Origin: a virus
DNA: 24,472 nucleotides
Strand: one strand, 5' to 3'
Virus record (IMG/VR): IMGVR_UViG_3300023210_000213
Location: 1-24,472 of that record
Made by a program: the position numbers and the translations under genes. Numbering within the stretch: the first letter of the stretch is position 1; each line of letters starts with the position of its first letter. The notes beneath the pieces are model-generated. The model was not told where the DNA came from and made no database searches. It saw only the letters and a program-made list of their open reading frames with translations. Of the stretch, positions 5,644-24,472 are shown piece after piece.

Positions 5644-6402
5644 TTAACTTTTTTCATTTATTTCATCCATTTGCACTTGCTGTGCTGCCGCCTGAACTAT
5701 TTGAGGATCTCTAATTATAATTCCTGCGTATTGAAGTACTCTTAAAATAACTTCTGTTTGCTCGCTTTCATGAAGCTCAAAATTAATAGAGCCTGTTGGT
5801 TGAGTAGATGCATTATACTCTTCTTCGTTATATAAATACTCGCCTAGCGTACCTACATTAAAACCCCATATTACATTAGATGGTTTTTTAACATATTCTA
5901 CTTGCACATTATTTTGAATAGTATCTGGTTTTATAAACAAATAATTGTTCTCATACAAATATGTAGGGAAAGTTTCAGTTGCTTTTGTTAATTTAGATTT
6001 TTCAGAAGTATAAAAATCATTTCTTTGAAGTCTTTGTATTAAAACTTCATTATTATATGTTACTTCACCCAATCTATAAAAGTTAACAGTTCTTCCATAA
6101 GAATCAGTAGTGGGCAGAGTAAAATAATTAGTAGGGGTAGGTGATGTATTATTATATAAGGCATTGCCAAACGTTTTAAATATAGCTACTTTTTCATCTA
6201 TATTTTCTAGCCTATCAGCGTAATTTAAATCGCTTTGAGGAACTCTAGCTTGTTGATTTAAATCTTCAAAATATTTTTCAAATATTTCAAGTTGAACTTG
6301 TGTTCCTACTTTGTTAAATTCATCAGGAGTCATATACCCCCTTTGCTCTTTATTTAAAATAGACAACACTGTTTGATATACAGTATTTACGTTTATTGCC
6401 AT
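5644..6402 (-). CDS. Neck ring / connector structural protein
   Basis: A 252-residue protein opening with a helical segment (VNTVYQTVLSILNKEQRGYM) followed by TPDEFNKVGTQVQLEIFEKY. This beginning is widespread in structural proteins of marine and crAss-like phages, where the genes lie between the capsid and the tail-hub genes. The middle has beta segments (NYFTLPTTD, YRLGEVTYNN, YLFIKPDTIQNNVQVEYVKKP). The C-terminus is a helical tail (TEVILRVLQYAGIIIRDPQI, then AAAQQVQMDEI). It has no catalytic motif and no membrane segment. It is followed after 6 bases by the adaptor gene, and a small hairpin separates it from the gene before it. Role as a connector or ring subunit is inferred from family resemblance and position. 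Confidence 0.6.
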   Translation of the reverse strand: MAINVNTVYQTVLSILNKEQRGYMTPDEFNKVGTQVQLEIFEKYFEDLNQQARVPQSDLNYADRLENIDEKVAIFKTFGNALYNNTSPTPTNYFTLPTTDSYGRTVNFYRLGEVTYNNEVLIQRLQRNDFYTSEKSKLTKATETFPTYLYENNYLFIKPDTIQNNVQVEYVKKPSNVIWGFNVGTLGEYLYNEEEYNASTQPTGSINFELHESEQTEVILRVLQYAGIIIRDPQIVQAAAQQVQMDEINEKS

Positions 6403-14738: not shown

Positions 14739-15004
14739 TATTTTGATCTTGTTTCAGCAAAACCTCCAAAAGTTTTTTGGCTACTAGATTTATCTTCTAA
14801 TAATTTTTCTTCATTTTCTATTCTAGTAAGTATTTCAAATGCATCAAATATTGCCAACTTTTTTGTTGCTGCTGCATTTTTTAATCTATCTGCTGATATA
14901 TCATCTTCTGAATCTACAATAGCTTCTTTAGCTACTTTAATTAACTCCTCAACTGCTTTTTGCCCAGCTTGGATTATACTCAGTTTGGTTTTCTTTACGT
15001 TCAT
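14738..15004 (-). CDS. Probable terminase small subunit
   Basis: An 88-residue, helix-rich protein from MNVKKTKLSIIQAGQKAVEE. A start six codons further upstream (15022, MILLLS) is open, but the shorter start is preferred because MILLLS looks like chance sequence. The core ISADRLKNAAATKKLAIFDA with a following FEILTRIENEE is a conserved block I recall from marine phages, usually beside terL. Small charged helical proteins in this place typically recognise DNA for packaging. It overlaps the 201-residue gene upstream by 56 bases in a different frame and overlaps terL by one base. The C-terminus is Ser/Lys-rich and ends FAETRSK. No enzyme motif is present. The terminase assignment rests on position and size; a classical helix-turn-helix is not obvious. 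Confidence 0.5.
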   Translation of the reverse strand: MNVKKTKLSIIQAGQKAVEELIKVAKEAIVDSEDDISADRLKNAAATKKLAIFDAFEILTRIENEEKLLEDKSSSQKTFGGFAETRSK

Positions 15005-15554
15005 ACTTAATAACAATATCATTAGATTTCATACAATATAACCGCTCATTATCTACTATAAACTCCCATTCGCTGTTTGGAGTAAAGCCTATAACATCAC
15101 CTGGGTTGATTTCAAGCGCTTTTAACGAGCTATTGCTATACTTTAGTATACCAACATACTTTTGCTCTTTTTCTAGGCTTGTAGGGTCATTATTTAAAAT
15201 AGGCTTAACAAAGCATCTATCCATAAATGAATGCCACTCATTATTTTTTTTATAAAGATACACCTGATCTGGCTGACAAAAGTAAAGATTGTCTTTAAAA
15301 TATTTACTACTGTTTTTTTCTTTACCTTTTATATCATAATATCTTCTAAAAACATTATGATGAATTACAATTTCATCACCTTTTTTTATAACGGTGTTAT
15401 AAGCTTTTGGCGTAGATATAACTTTAGCAAGTTTATTTATAAACTTAAATGATTCTATATTACAGTTTAATATTAAATCTTTATTATCTACTTTAGTTGT
15501 ATTGTTATATCTTTCCCCAATAGGCTCAACAATAAAATCGTAGATACTATTCAT
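14949..15554 (-). CDS. Large GroES-like protein, possibly two co-chaperonin-like modules
   Basis: A 201-residue protein. The C-terminal part reads like a GroES-type barrel: VKPI, then YVGILKY, LKALEINPGDVIGFTPNS, and ERLYCMKSNDIVIKY (residues about 116-190), which matches the GroES order of turn, GD-V, Y/C strand and final D-I strand. The N-terminal part is similar (FIVEPIGERY, then KLAKVIS, VIKKGDEIVIHH and LYFCQPDQVYLY). If both halves fold alike this is a double GroES-like protein. It may act as a co-chaperonin variant, or the fold may be used structurally. Similar proteins occur near packaging genes in marine phages, from memory. It starts 8 bases inside the upstream 76-residue gene and overlaps the small terminase gene by 56 bases. 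Sequence identity to true GroES is low. Confidence 0.5.
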   Translation of the reverse strand: MNSIYDFIVEPIGERYNNTTKVDNKDLILNCNIESFKFINKLAKVISTPKAYNTVIKKGDEIVIHHNVFRRYYDIKGKEKNSSKYFKDNLYFCQPDQVYLYKKNNEWHSFMDRCFVKPILNNDPTSLEKEQKYVGILKYSNSSLKALEINPGDVIGFTPNSEWEFIVDNERLYCMKSNDIVIKYERKENQTEYNPSWAKSS

Positions 15555-19122: not shown

Positions 19123-19569
19123 TTATCTATACTTGTCTTTATTAACATTGTCTATAGAAACCTTTAAAACTTTATTTGTGTAGGTTTCACCTTTCATTAT
19201 TACATTTCTACGTTCGCTTATTGGAATATCTTCTTCACCAAGCATTATCTTATATATTTTATTTATAAGCTGCTTACATTTAAAAGATGTTTTGTATATA
19301 TTATACTTTTGAGTTGTATGATTTCTTTTACGCCATACAGTTATCCAGCCTTCTTTTAATAGTGTATTCCATCTTCTATTATTCCAGCTATACGAATAAG
19401 CCCCCGTTTTAAAATCTATCTTGCTAAATAGATCAACACAATCTAAATATATTAAGAGCTCTAAATCAGCATCAGTCATGCCATTATTTTTAGCAGCCCA
19501 CTTTCTTATAATTCTATAATGCTTCAGCAAGTTAAGATCTTTTAAATCTCTTGCTTCTAATCTTTTCAT
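19123..19569 (-). CDS. Possible winged-helix protein, conserved in marine phages
   Basis: A 148-residue basic protein. Residues about 30-80 (GMTDADLELLIYLDCVDLFS, SYSWNNRRWNTLLKEGWITV, WRKRNHTTQKYNIYKTSF) read like a winged-helix unit: short helices followed by a strand hairpin with Trp/Arg residues. The C-terminal part is helical and basic (CKQLINKIYKIMLGEEDIPI), then RRNVIMKGETYTNKVL. From memory this arrangement is a recurring unknown family in marine phages. It could bind DNA as a late-gene regulator or be a virion protein. The ATG overlaps the GroES stop by 4 bases (ATGA), so it is coupled to chaperonin expression. No HTH assignment is certain without a profile search. Confidence 0.6.
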   Translation of the reverse strand: MKRLEARDLKDLNLLKHYRIIRKWAAKNNGMTDADLELLIYLDCVDLFSKIDFKTGAYSYSWNNRRWNTLLKEGWITVWRKRNHTTQKYNIYKTSFKCKQLINKIYKIMLGEEDIPISERRNVIMKGETYTNKVLKVSIDNVNKDKYR

Positions 19570-19826
19570 AAAACGATTACAACGTCTTGGAGTTTAATTA
19601 CTTGTAAAACTTCTTTATTTATTTCAACACCATGCCCTGCATGCTTATCATAATAAATATTGTCGTTTTCTTCAACTCCAATTACTTCAGAACCTACAGA
19701 TATTACTTTGGCTTTATTATATCTTAAATCTTCTCTTTGATTTTCAGTTAACAATAAGCCTCCCTTGGTTTCAGAAGTACCTTGTTTTTCTTTTTTAATT
19801 ATTAAGTTTCTACCTATTGCCTTCAT
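19566..19826 (-). CDS. groES: Co-chaperonin GroES, short form
   Basis: An 86-residue GroES. It has the N-terminal strand (MKAIGRNLIIKKEK), the mobile loop with its GroEL-contact tripeptide (GTSETKGGLLLTEN, residues 16-29; LLL replaces the usual IVL), and the closing strand (LQVIKLQDVVIVL). E. coli GroES has 97 residues. The shortfall falls between VISVG and the GD-V-equivalent strand, where the roof hairpin of GroES would be, so this protein may lack the dome roof, as T4 gp31 is known to do. That would enlarge the folding cage. It caps the GroEL cavity for folding of virion proteins. The ORF begins 17 bases before the groEL stop and ends with ATGA overlap on the next gene. Confidence 0.9.
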   Translation of the reverse strand: MKAIGRNLIIKKEKQGTSETKGGLLLTENQREDLRYNKAKVISVGSEVIGVEENDNIYYDKHAGHGVEINKEVLQVIKLQDVVIVL

Positions 19827-21363
19827 TAATACGTAAATTATTAATTATACAATCTGTAGACAATATAGTAGTTGCAACTGAAGCAGCATTTTTTAATGCG
19901 GTTTTGGTTACAAGCAATGGATCAATTATTCCTGACTTAATCATATTTTTACTTTGGCCAGTAATAACATCAAGCCCCCAACCTTTTTTAGTAGGCTCAA
20001 CAATATCGAAATTTGCATTTTCTAATATTGTTATATAAGGAGCTTTAATAGCGTTTAATAATATTTCTTCGGCTTTATTTTTAGGCTTTATTTGTGTTGA
20101 TGCGTTTAATAATGCAACGCCCCCACCCGGTACAATGCCTTCTTTAATAGCAGCTTTAGTAGCACAAATAGCGTCTTCTACTCTATCTGCTTTTTCTTTT
20201 AATTCAATATCTGAATCTGCACCAACTTTAACTGTAGCAATCTTAGCTGATAACCTAGCTAATCTTTTTTCAAGCCTTATAGTTTCAGCAGCATTGTTTT
20301 TACCAGATAAATCTTTTTTAATTTTATTAATTACTTCGGATACTTCATCGGTAATACTTTCAACTTTTATAATAGTTTCAGTATCATTGGTAACAGATTT
20401 TAAACATTTACCTAAATGCTCTGGCTGTATTAAATCCATGTCATCACCTAAATCTTCATTTATAATAGTAGCGCCGGTTAATAATGCTAAATCAGTTAGC
20501 ATATCTTTTTTAGCTACTCCATAAGTAGGTGCATTGATAACATTAATTTTTACATTACCTTTTATTTTATTCATCGCCAATGTAGATATAACTTTAGGAT
20601 CTAAATCAGCTATAATAAGTAAAGGTTTACTTTTCTTTATAATGTATTCTAATACAGATTGTATCTTACGTATATTTTCTACAGGAGATTCAATTAATAA
20701 TACATAAGGATTGTCAAGCTCTGCAACTTTAGAATCTTGCTTAGTAATAAAATGTGAATTTGTTAGCCCCTTTTCGTATTGTAATCCATCAATTAATTCA
20801 GCTGTAGTTTCAGACAACTCTGTTGTTTCCATCATAACTACGCCGGTTTCATCAACTGATCTAAAGGCGTTTGCAATAGTTGTACCTAGTTTTATATCGT
20901 TATTAGTAGATATACTAGCCACTTGGTCAATCATATCACCTGTGACCTCTACAGAAGCTTTTTCTAAATGTTGCACAACTTTCTGTACAGCACTGTCAAT
21001 ACCTTCTTTTAATCCCCTAGCGCCTAATTCTTTTAATTTAGGATATGCCTCATTTAAAATTGAGTGCGCTAGCACTGTAGCCGTTGTCGTTCCGTCGCCA
21101 GCTTCTCTTACAGTTTTCCTAGCAGCTTCCTTTAAAAGCGTAGCACCCATATTTTCAATAGGGTCTAATAATACAATTGAATCAGCTACAGTTACCCCAT
21201 CTTTTGTAATAACAGGTTTTCCTGCGCCGTCTTCTAATATCACACGTTTACCGCTAGCTCCGAGAGTGGAACTAACGGCTTTTGTGAGTTTGTTTATACC
21301 TTCAAATAGTTTATCCTTAGCTTCGTGACCAAAGCTGAGGTTCTTGACAATTGCGTCCGACAT
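19810..21363 (-). CDS. groEL: Chaperonin GroEL (Hsp60, group I)
   Basis: A 517-residue complete group I chaperonin; E. coli GroEL has 548. The ATP site has KDGVTVA (54-60), GDGTTTAT (89-96) and the catalytic aspartate D397 (RVEDAICATKAA), equivalent to E. coli D398; GIVPGGGVALL follows. The phosphate loop reads LGASGKR where the usual form is LGPKGRN. The GGM-repeat tail is missing; the protein ends NNLRINEGNR. The apical and intermediate regions look complete. The double ring with GroES folds proteins in a closed chamber. It is joined to groES by a 17-base overlap, as in a groELS operon but with order reversed (EL then ES). Phage-encoded group I chaperonins are known in a few large phages. 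Its likely clients are capsid or tail proteins. Confidence 0.95.
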   Translation of the reverse strand: MSDAIVKNLSFGHEAKDKLFEGINKLTKAVSSTLGASGKRVILEDGAGKPVITKDGVTVADSIVLLDPIENMGATLLKEAARKTVREAGDGTTTATVLAHSILNEAYPKLKELGARGLKEGIDSAVQKVVQHLEKASVEVTGDMIDQVASISTNNDIKLGTTIANAFRSVDETGVVMMETTELSETTAELIDGLQYEKGLTNSHFITKQDSKVAELDNPYVLLIESPVENIRKIQSVLEYIIKKSKPLLIIADLDPKVISTLAMNKIKGNVKINVINAPTYGVAKKDMLTDLALLTGATIINEDLGDDMDLIQPEHLGKCLKSVTNDTETIIKVESITDEVSEVINKIKKDLSGKNNAAETIRLEKRLARLSAKIATVKVGADSDIELKEKADRVEDAICATKAAIKEGIVPGGGVALLNASTQIKPKNKAEEILLNAIKAPYITILENANFDIVEPTKKGWGLDVITGQSKNMIKSGIIDPLLVTKTALKNAASVATTILSTDCIINNLRINEGNR

Positions 21364-21725: not shown

Positions 21726-22187
21726 TTACTCACCTTTACAAGAACAGCTGTCTTCGCCGCATGTGCATTTTTTTTGTGACGTTAGTTGCCTATGCGCGCC
21801 AGCTCTATCATCATAATCTAATGCTGCTTTTAATATAATCTTGTCCATTACATCGTCTTGGTTTTTCAACATTTCTTTTTGAAGATTAATAACCATAGAT
21901 TCTAAATCATCTTTTGCTTTGGTTAAATAGTCTATTTGTAATTGCTTTTTTTCTACATCATTTTTTAATGAGTTTACATCATCGGGTTTAGCACCAGTAA
22001 TTGTGCTAATAACAATACCAATTGAAGCAGAAATGGTTCCAATTAGCATCATTACAACTTCTTTGTTTGTTTCTAATACAGGAAACATTACAAGCCATAC
22101 TACTATTCCTATAATTAATAAGAATACAAATAAACTTCCAATATAATGTCTTATTTCGCGAGCTATGCCGTTTCTTGGTAATTTCAT
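21726..22187 (-). CDS. Two-helix membrane protein with coiled coil and Cys cluster
   Basis: A 153-residue protein with a basic N-terminus (MKLPRNGIAREIRHYIG) that suits a cytoplasmic start, two transmembrane helices (SLFVFLLIIGIVVWLVMFPV, then VVMMLIGTISASIGIVISTI), a charged coiled coil (SLKNDVEKKQLQIDYLTKAK, then DDLESMVINLQKEMLKN) and a C-terminal cysteine cluster (KKCTCGEDSCSCKGE). The four cysteines in CxC and CxC form suggest metal binding or disulphides. Two helices with a soluble coiled coil would fit a holin or a membrane anchor near the fibre gene; I found no spanin-like partner. The alternative is a lysis-timing or superinfection protein. It lies between the fibre gene and the small gene before groEL. 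Function is not assignable from sequence alone. Confidence 0.6.
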   Translation of the reverse strand: MKLPRNGIAREIRHYIGSLFVFLLIIGIVVWLVMFPVLETNKEVVMMLIGTISASIGIVISTITGAKPDDVNSLKNDVEKKQLQIDYLTKAKDDLESMVINLQKEMLKNQDDVMDKIILKAALDYDDRAGAHRQLTSQKKCTCGEDSCSCKGE

Positions 22188-22202: not shown

Positions 22203-22250
22203 TTATGCAAATGCCATGTATATAAAAATCTTATTAAGTCCATTATTTGC
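22203..22250 (-). other. In-frame extension beyond the tail-fibre stop
   Basis: Immediately after the fibre's TAA the same frame continues for 15 codons (ANNGLNKIFIYMAFA) to another TAA at 22203. IYMAFA is, from memory, the usual end of this kind of marine-phage fibre protein, so these codons look like the true C-terminus cut off by one stop codon (22251-22253). Confidence 0.6.
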
Positions 22251-24472
22251 TTAACTTGATGTTTTTAATTGAAACCCATCAGAATTTAAATCCATTATAT
22301 TTTCTCCAGTATATTCGGCACCGGAGCTGTTAGCATCTAATCTTGCTGAATTTGGGTTTGTAGTGTCTCTTTTATTGTCAATCATAATCCAATCAGAGGT
22401 CTGGTCAGTCCCTTTAATCATAACAAAACTTGGAGCAAAATCCAAAGTAACAATAGTACCTGTTGTAGAGCCGTTCCCCGTATAAGTCCCCATCTTACTA
22501 TATCCTGTAACTGAATGGAAGCAGTAGGCGATAAAATTATTAGAAGAATTAACTTCAAAATGACTTCCTAAGGTAAATGTATTGGTTTGTACACTTTTTA
22601 CTCTATCTCTTGTTTGTTTTTGTCCATTGTCATTTAAGTAAAGATTTTCTCCATTTCCTACTGTACTACCACCAACACACCAATAATTAGCAGATGTTAA
22701 ATCTTTTACTATTACTATATTACATGCTTCCGTTAAACCAGTCCCAACAGTAGCTCCATCTGTATTATTCCCTGTATACTTCACAATACTAAACCCAGAA
22801 TCTTTATTAGCACTAACCTGGCTTGCTGTAGTGCCCTCATTATTAGTAACAGCTGTGCCTCCAGCTTTCCAGTTCCATGAAACATAATCTACGGTATTTG
22901 CATTTGTTCCAACGATACCAACACCATTAACCGTAAAACCGTTTGCATCAAAAGAGGTTACTCCTGCGTATGTTGTTTCCGCTGATGTTGTTTCGCTTTG
23001 TAGTAATTTTGAAGCTCCTCTTACGGAATCAATCAATACGTTCCCGATAGCAGAGCTTCTTGCTTTAATCCAAACAAAATCCGGTGCAAAATCTAAATGA
23101 CCATTAAAGTTTACATTTGTAGCCGCTCCGCTATATGATGTAGCGATACCTCTAGCTAAAGTTGTTACTTGAGTTTGTGTAAGTACTGTATTAAATATTC
23201 TTACTTGGTCTATATCGCAATCATTTGTCCAAGTCTGTCCTATACTGCCATTCACATAAATTTGCCCTATTGAGAATGGGCTTGTTGTTGCTGCTATTGT
23301 AACGGTCAAAGTCGCTGTGTTTTCAAGAACACCATTTATGTAAATCTTTTGAGTATTACCAGTTATTGTTACTACACAATGAACCCATAATCCAGTATTG
23401 ACATTTGAAACACTAGTGTGTTCTGGGTTGTTAGCATTACTTGCATTACCGCTCCTTCCAACTAATTTATTATTATTTATGTAAAGGTGCAGATTACCCC
23501 AATGGTTTCCTGATATATTATCCCCAACTAACCCTTGCGGATTTGTTGATGTTGTTTTTACCCATAAAGAAACACTTGCGGTCGATAGGGAAGGTTTGGA
23601 TGCATTAGGGACTACTATACTACTACTAAGACCATTAAATACCGCGGCTTGGTCAAAAGCACCTCCTTGATAAGTAATATTAGCTGGTGTACCATTATAT
23701 GTTCCACTAGTATCATTTGAATTTCCATTCATTTCATATAGTGCAATACAGCCTGCACCTGCTGGATAATTAACTGTACTTAAATCTTGTGTATTTAAAA
23801 GACCATTAGCACTGGTGTCCATTGTATATGTGGCTATAGCTGTTTGCCCAGATGGGAATGCAGCTGTAGATGCAGTTGCGGCTGTTTCGCCATAAAGAGC
23901 TGTAACATCTGAAGAACTTAATGCAGCATTATAAACCCTAACTTGGTCTATTAAACCATTAAATTCATTATTAGAAGCCCAATCTGTTAAACCTCCTATT
24001 TGTAAGTTTGAAGTACCTAAAAAATTACTACTTGCAATTCTTGTGTTTTCTAAAACACCATTTAAATAAATTTTTTGCGTTTTTGATGATGCGTCAAAAG
24101 TACACACCCAATGTTGCCAAGTTCCATCAGTTGATACATTTGTGGTTGAGTCTACATCATTAGCATAAAAACCAAATCTCATTTTGCCGACTGGGTAGGA
24201 TACGATTCTACCAATGTGCAAATTTTTATTACTACCATTATCTCCTTCTGTAATTATAACATAATTATCATTTGTACTATCAGTACACGCAATCCAAAAA
24301 GAAAAACTAAAGGAATTATTCGCAATATTAAGGTTAGAATTTATTTCTATTTTACTACTACTTCCGTTAAAACTCCCTGATCCATTTATATACCCGCCTA
24401 TACCTTGTGTAGCGCCATTACCTGTATATAATTTTGTATCAAAATAATTAGTTGCTGGTCCTATAAATCCGC
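22251..24472 (-). CDS. Tail fibre / receptor-binding protein with LamG domains (5' partial)
   Basis: At least 739 residues are visible; the frame is open to the right edge, so the N-terminus is missing (a TTG at 24221 is not the true start). Two LamG/concanavalin-like lectin domains are seen, at visible residues about 23-193 and 240-440, each with KIYLNGVLENT or KIYINGVLENT and ending IDQVRVYNAALSSSDVTALY or IDQVRIFNTVLTQTQVTTLA. A region with repeated FAPDFVWIKARSS / FAPSFVMIKGTDQT and NIVIVKDLTSANYW elements (about 450-739) follows; this is a fold I recall from marine-phage tail fibres. LamG domains bind sugars or proteins, fitting host attachment. The stop codon lies just before an expected conserved end (see 22203-22250). 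It opens the visible part of the rightmost operon. Confidence 0.8.
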   Translation of the reverse strand, partial: GFIGPATNYFDTKLYTGNGATQGIGGYINGSGSFNGSSSKIEINSNLNIANNSFSFSFWIACTDSTNDNYVIITEGDNGSNKNLHIGRIVSYPVGKMRFGFYANDVDSTTNVSTDGTWQHWVCTFDASSKTQKIYLNGVLENTRIASSNFLGTSNLQIGGLTDWASNNEFNGLIDQVRVYNAALSSSDVTALYGETAATASTAAFPSGQTAIATYTMDTSANGLLNTQDLSTVNYPAGAGCIALYEMNGNSNDTSGTYNGTPANITYQGGAFDQAAVFNGLSSSIVVPNASKPSLSTASVSLWVKTTSTNPQGLVGDNISGNHWGNLHLYINNNKLVGRSGNASNANNPEHTSVSNVNTGLWVHCVVTITGNTQKIYINGVLENTATLTVTIAATTSPFSIGQIYVNGSIGQTWTNDCDIDQVRIFNTVLTQTQVTTLARGIATSYSGAATNVNFNGHLDFAPDFVWIKARSSAIGNVLIDSVRGASKLLQSETTSAETTYAGVTSFDANGFTVNGVGIVGTNANTVDYVSWNWKAGGTAVTNNEGTTASQVSANKDSGFSIVKYTGNNTDGATVGTGLTEACNIVIVKDLTSANYWCVGGSTVGNGENLYLNDNGQKQTRDRVKSVQTNTFTLGSHFEVNSSNNFIAYCFHSVTGYSKMGTYTGNGSTTGTIVTLDFAPSFVMIKGTDQTSDWIMIDNKRDTTNPNSARLDANSSGAEYTGENIMDLNSDGFQLKTSS

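Follow-up and report, generated by a model that had tools for sequence, protein, structure and literature searches.

The window, meaning the whole 24,472-base virus record analysed here, appears from its sequence to represent a marine, podovirus-like phage that belongs near the flavophages. Its terminase is 45% identical to that of Flavobacterium elemo phages and 62% identical to that of an unclassified Caudoviricetes record. GroEL is encoded at 19810-21363, and there are possibly two GroES-like genes besides it, one bearing the PHROG label co-chaperonin GroES (14949-15554) and one an ORF of 86 amino acids which adjoins GroEL and looks GroES-like by eye (19566-19826). On the minus strand, a tail fibre ORF is open from the contig end (24470) down to a TAA codon, with the features of this locus listed in Table 1. 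The fibre consists of two Laminin_G_3-type stretches (PF13385, E = 9.7e-43) followed by a DUF7483 domain (PF24299, residues 444-738, E = 8.1e-83), which scores 278.7 bits against a cut-off of 27 and is hence a member of this family by profile. DUF7483 relatives were found in Pelagibacter, Synechococcus and Roseobacter phages, and the window shares sequence, length and the terminal IYMAFA strand with the DUF7483 fibre tips of marine pelagiphages, cyanophages and roseophages.

Table 1. Features at the 3' end of the tail fibre gene, in window coordinates.
Feature	Position	Strand	Remark
Tail fibre ORF as read	22254..24470	(-)	739 codons; truncated 5' at the edge of the contig
Whole DUF7483 domain	22206..23141	(-)	312 residues if read through
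Apparent swapped tip cassette	22203..22533	(-)	DNA 88-90% identical to L044/L007 and L046/L006
In-frame stop TAA, well supported as premature	22251..22253	(-)	TCA or GCA in nearest relatives
15 post-stop codons, ANNGLNKIFIYMAFA	22206..22250	(-)	last beta-strand of DUF7483
Ancestral stop TAA	22203..22205	(-)	15-nt spacer to the next gene, shared with syntenic phages
Downstream gene (MKLPRNGIAREIRHYIGSLF...)	21726..22187	(-)	conserved, 153 aa; used as synteny anchor

The original prediction placed an in-frame TAA just before the natural end of the fibre, and this was confirmed, with the same frame continuing through ANNGLNKIFIYMAFA to a second TAA. The stretch ANNGLNKIFIYMAFA is translated solely if the first TAA is read through. 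As encoded, the product ends at TSS, 16 residues short of the ancestral end, and the complete C-terminal strand of DUF7483 is absent from it.

The IYMAFA motif, named in the original prediction as the usual C-terminus of this fibre type, is real. Nearly all DUF7483 relatives in IMG/VR carry it as [YF][IL][YF][ML]A[FI][AK] at or near the C-terminus, usually at the very end of the protein. The resemblance well exceeds what chance would give: a profile of the DUF7483 C-terminus aligns to the window over its full length (positions 1-109), straight across the stop, and the close relative L046 shares 11 of the 15 post-stop residues. Phages sharing both the downstream MKLPRNGIAREIRHYIGSLF gene and a DUF7483 fibre end this fibre in YMAFA or a close variant, and the spacing between fibre end and MKLPRNGIAREIRHYIGSLF gene in syntenic phages is 11 to 21 nt, most often 15 nt. 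The same 15-nt spacing as at the second TAA of the window is found in L054, L055, L057, L058, L061 and L062. In L053, an extra ORF (630-1036, 131 codons from stop to stop) separates the intact end of the fibre from the conserved MKLPRNGIAR gene, taking the place of the 15-nt spacer that follows the second TAA in the window.

The five closest tips (L044 to L048) are 88-95% identical in protein sequence before the stop, and in every one of them the position of the window's TAA is occupied by serine (TCA) or alanine (GCA). These differ from the source codons proposed originally, namely CAA, GAA, AAA, TAT and TAC. A frameshift or indel was rejected as the origin of the stop because the DNA aligns gap-free at this site with near relatives.

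To count stops across the family, a profile of the last 109 domain positions was run on six-frame translations of all fetched loci, with stops read through. Of 342 distinct DNA segments that reached the domain end, the window alone had an internal stop, an in-frame TAA before the last strand. No stop occurred in any of 61 distinct segments from tblastn relatives, and a DNA pattern scan that fixed the preceding codons but allowed any codon at the stop position found no contig carrying TAA at this site. The scan of the collection used a smaller alignment, the family-wide one being too divergent. When 43 whole records were searched with PF24299, 42 gave a match, and two stops fell within the match in the window alone, the others having none or one at the domain end. 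A search for the tip in bacterial and archaeal genomes returned no relative. The relatives compared exclude records very near the window's own, i.e. sibling genomes, and the stop is known from this one sequence. Alignment of homologues, suggested with the original prediction as a check, showed the motif conserved and a sense codon at the stop position. Intact orthologues combine a sense codon at the site with a stop at the ancestral end, as expected for a nonsense mutation. Because every relative compared has a sense codon there and goes on to encode the conserved last strand, the reading of the first TAA as premature is well supported by these alignments.

Programmed stop-codon readthrough is known in phages, the A1 protein of Qbeta being one example. 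As in A1, the window has an in-frame stop followed by an open and recognisable coding stretch, and programmed readthrough of the TAA would yield a short fibre together with a long form carrying the IYMAFA strand, thereby varying host contact. Beyond the TAA the frame is indeed uninterrupted as far as the ancestral stop, and the final strand can still be recognised, but we consider this explanation very improbable. Unlike A1-type readthrough, the stop is unconserved, with a sense codon in all relatives examined, the codon is TAA and not the leaky TGA, and the extension is a single 15-residue structural strand, not an add-on domain. Both RNA structure and a terminator were looked for after the stop and neither was present, the RNA 3' of the stop having an MFE of -6.9 kcal/mol versus -9.97 for shuffles (z = +1.25). 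No tRNA genes lie within the 24,472-base fragment, hence a suppressor tRNA encoded there was rejected.

Stop codon usage, counted over 25 genes including this fibre, was TAA 20, TAG 3 and TGA 2, and the statement in the original prediction that all three stop codons terminate other genes was therefore right. As TAA ends 20 of the 25 genes, a strong or general TAA suppressor would be costly and would lengthen most phage proteins. The residues after the stop have also changed more than those before it, with private amino acid changes of the window in 0 of 76 codons before and 3 of 14 after, a small and post hoc count from one stop-bearing sequence which omits the last post-stop residue, itself also different. 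At least one of these three changes (V to I) lies in a stretch possibly recombined from the resident phage. This excess points weakly in the direction of relaxed constraint and away from a preserved extension. Programmed readthrough, one of the options first put forward, is thus unsupported. A receptor-binding fibre that, through in-frame TAA readthrough, displays its tip both with the final beta-strand and lacking it is harder still to credit; were readthrough true, the long form would contain NGLNKIFIYMAFA.

Late structural genes with an apparent internal stop also occur in crAss-like phages using code 15, in which TAG is read as glutamine (PMC9523058). Unlike in those phages, the codon in the window is TAA and occurs once. 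Code reassignment was rejected because TAA is the main stop codon, and all the other genes are open.

An AlphaFold2 model of the DUF7483 domain was made with the stop read as serine (mean pLDDT 94, pTM 0.93), in which residues 305-311 (IFIYMAF) form a predicted strand with a pLDDT of about 98. The models are suggestive of this last strand pairing with strands 215-221 and 239-244, although such models do not measure the effects of mutations. When the encoded product was modelled instead, strand 215-221 was unassigned and strand 239-244 was shortened to 239-242. The lost segment holds A310, one of six invariant columns in a 44-sequence alignment, and also two nearly invariant columns. From sequence and model together, DUF7483 appears to be built of three repeats, each about 100 residues long and ending in a similar strand (DYVSWNWKAG, IAYCFHSVTG and IFIYMAFA). 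Foldseek of the domain against the PDB gave no significant match; the weak matches include the beta-rich domain of T. gondii PLP1 and PCSK9.

The tip appears to be a swapped cassette, because the DNA from 22533 to 22203 resembles tips from other genomic contexts and the DNA below about 22235 resembles the window's own syntenic group. The genes downstream of the L044/L007 and L046/L006 tips differ from those of the window, and from about 22235 downwards the DNA is 89-95% identical to the syntenic L055, L058, L005 and L062. The 3' junction of the cassette falls somewhere in 22203-22235, within the conserved stretch coding for IYMAFA. Phages whose downstream genes differ thus appear to exchange the last third of DUF7483 as a cassette. 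Since the stop sits just inside the cassette, a substitution during or after transfer would be the simplest account of it.

We consider the TAA to be most probably a real nonsense mutation, private to this lineage, in a tip module that was swapped in recently. Recombination between phages would have supplied the final third of the tip domain as a cassette, its ends lying, as DNA similarity indicates, in the conserved CFHSVxGYSK strand and the conserved IYMAFA strand. Inside this cassette, the sense codon that specifies serine or alanine in every close relative would have been turned into TAA. The resulting fibre would be 16 residues short and lack the tip's final beta-strand, a well ordered predicted strand whose absence presumably entails loss of function. 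The phage would then probably be impaired, or make do with another fibre, whose gene, like any tRNA genes, could lie beyond this genome fragment, or with a low level of background readthrough.

A nonsense mutation and an assembly error were both named in the original prediction; the premature stop they share is upheld by the sense codons of relatives, and of the two the nonsense mutation is the more probable. The stop could stem from a wrong base call or from misassembly, or be a minority variant taken as the consensus, with the real genome having a sense codon and encoding a full-length fibre. We regard this as unlikely, though it deserves consideration, as the stop is private to the window's record, one substitution from a codon seen in relatives suffices to produce it, and lengths and frame are otherwise perfect, the protein being normal without the stop. 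However, the neighbouring codons also bear private changes that resemble natural divergence, and the window's 24 remaining counted genes showed no interruption. The other genes compared with relatives were all uninterrupted, hence the contig is not generally error-ridden. Seen in isolation, the stop would be a private nonsense mutation of an ordinary kind in a phage contig from a metagenome, or possibly a sequence error.

If the nonsense mutation is real, it may also have been selected, with the shorter tip altering or relaxing receptor binding. Selection on fibre tips is strong, and host-range phage mutants whose tail fibre gene contains a premature stop are reported for kayvirus 812K1/420 (PMC6445280); the window resembles them in that an adsorption gene stops early in one isolate or lineage. 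Unlike these mutants, the window loses just its last 16 residues, and does so by codon substitution with no deletion. We think an adaptive truncation improbable, given that few parts of the domain are as conserved as the lost strand and that no second phage with the truncation was found among the 342 domain ends scanned.

The cassette context is a useful by-product of this analysis, the borders lying in conserved strand-coding sequences, which fits the known swapping of tips among phages. The fibre gene as a whole (22203-24470) is a patchwork in which segments matching syntenic phages at 85-99% DNA identity are interspersed with unrelated ones, and L010 matches at 90% identity over 24371-23935. 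A further record, L135 (IMGVR_UViG_3300031851_000067), was considered as an independent truncation of the same tip and rejected, its sequence at 5650-5800 being a decayed relic (GENIMDLNTDGFQLKTSSSSKK) behind an intact fibre. The frame of this relic is lost in a run of seven A, and it directly follows an intact fibre of 1012 amino acids with a different tip, as if the old tip had stayed behind after a tip swap.
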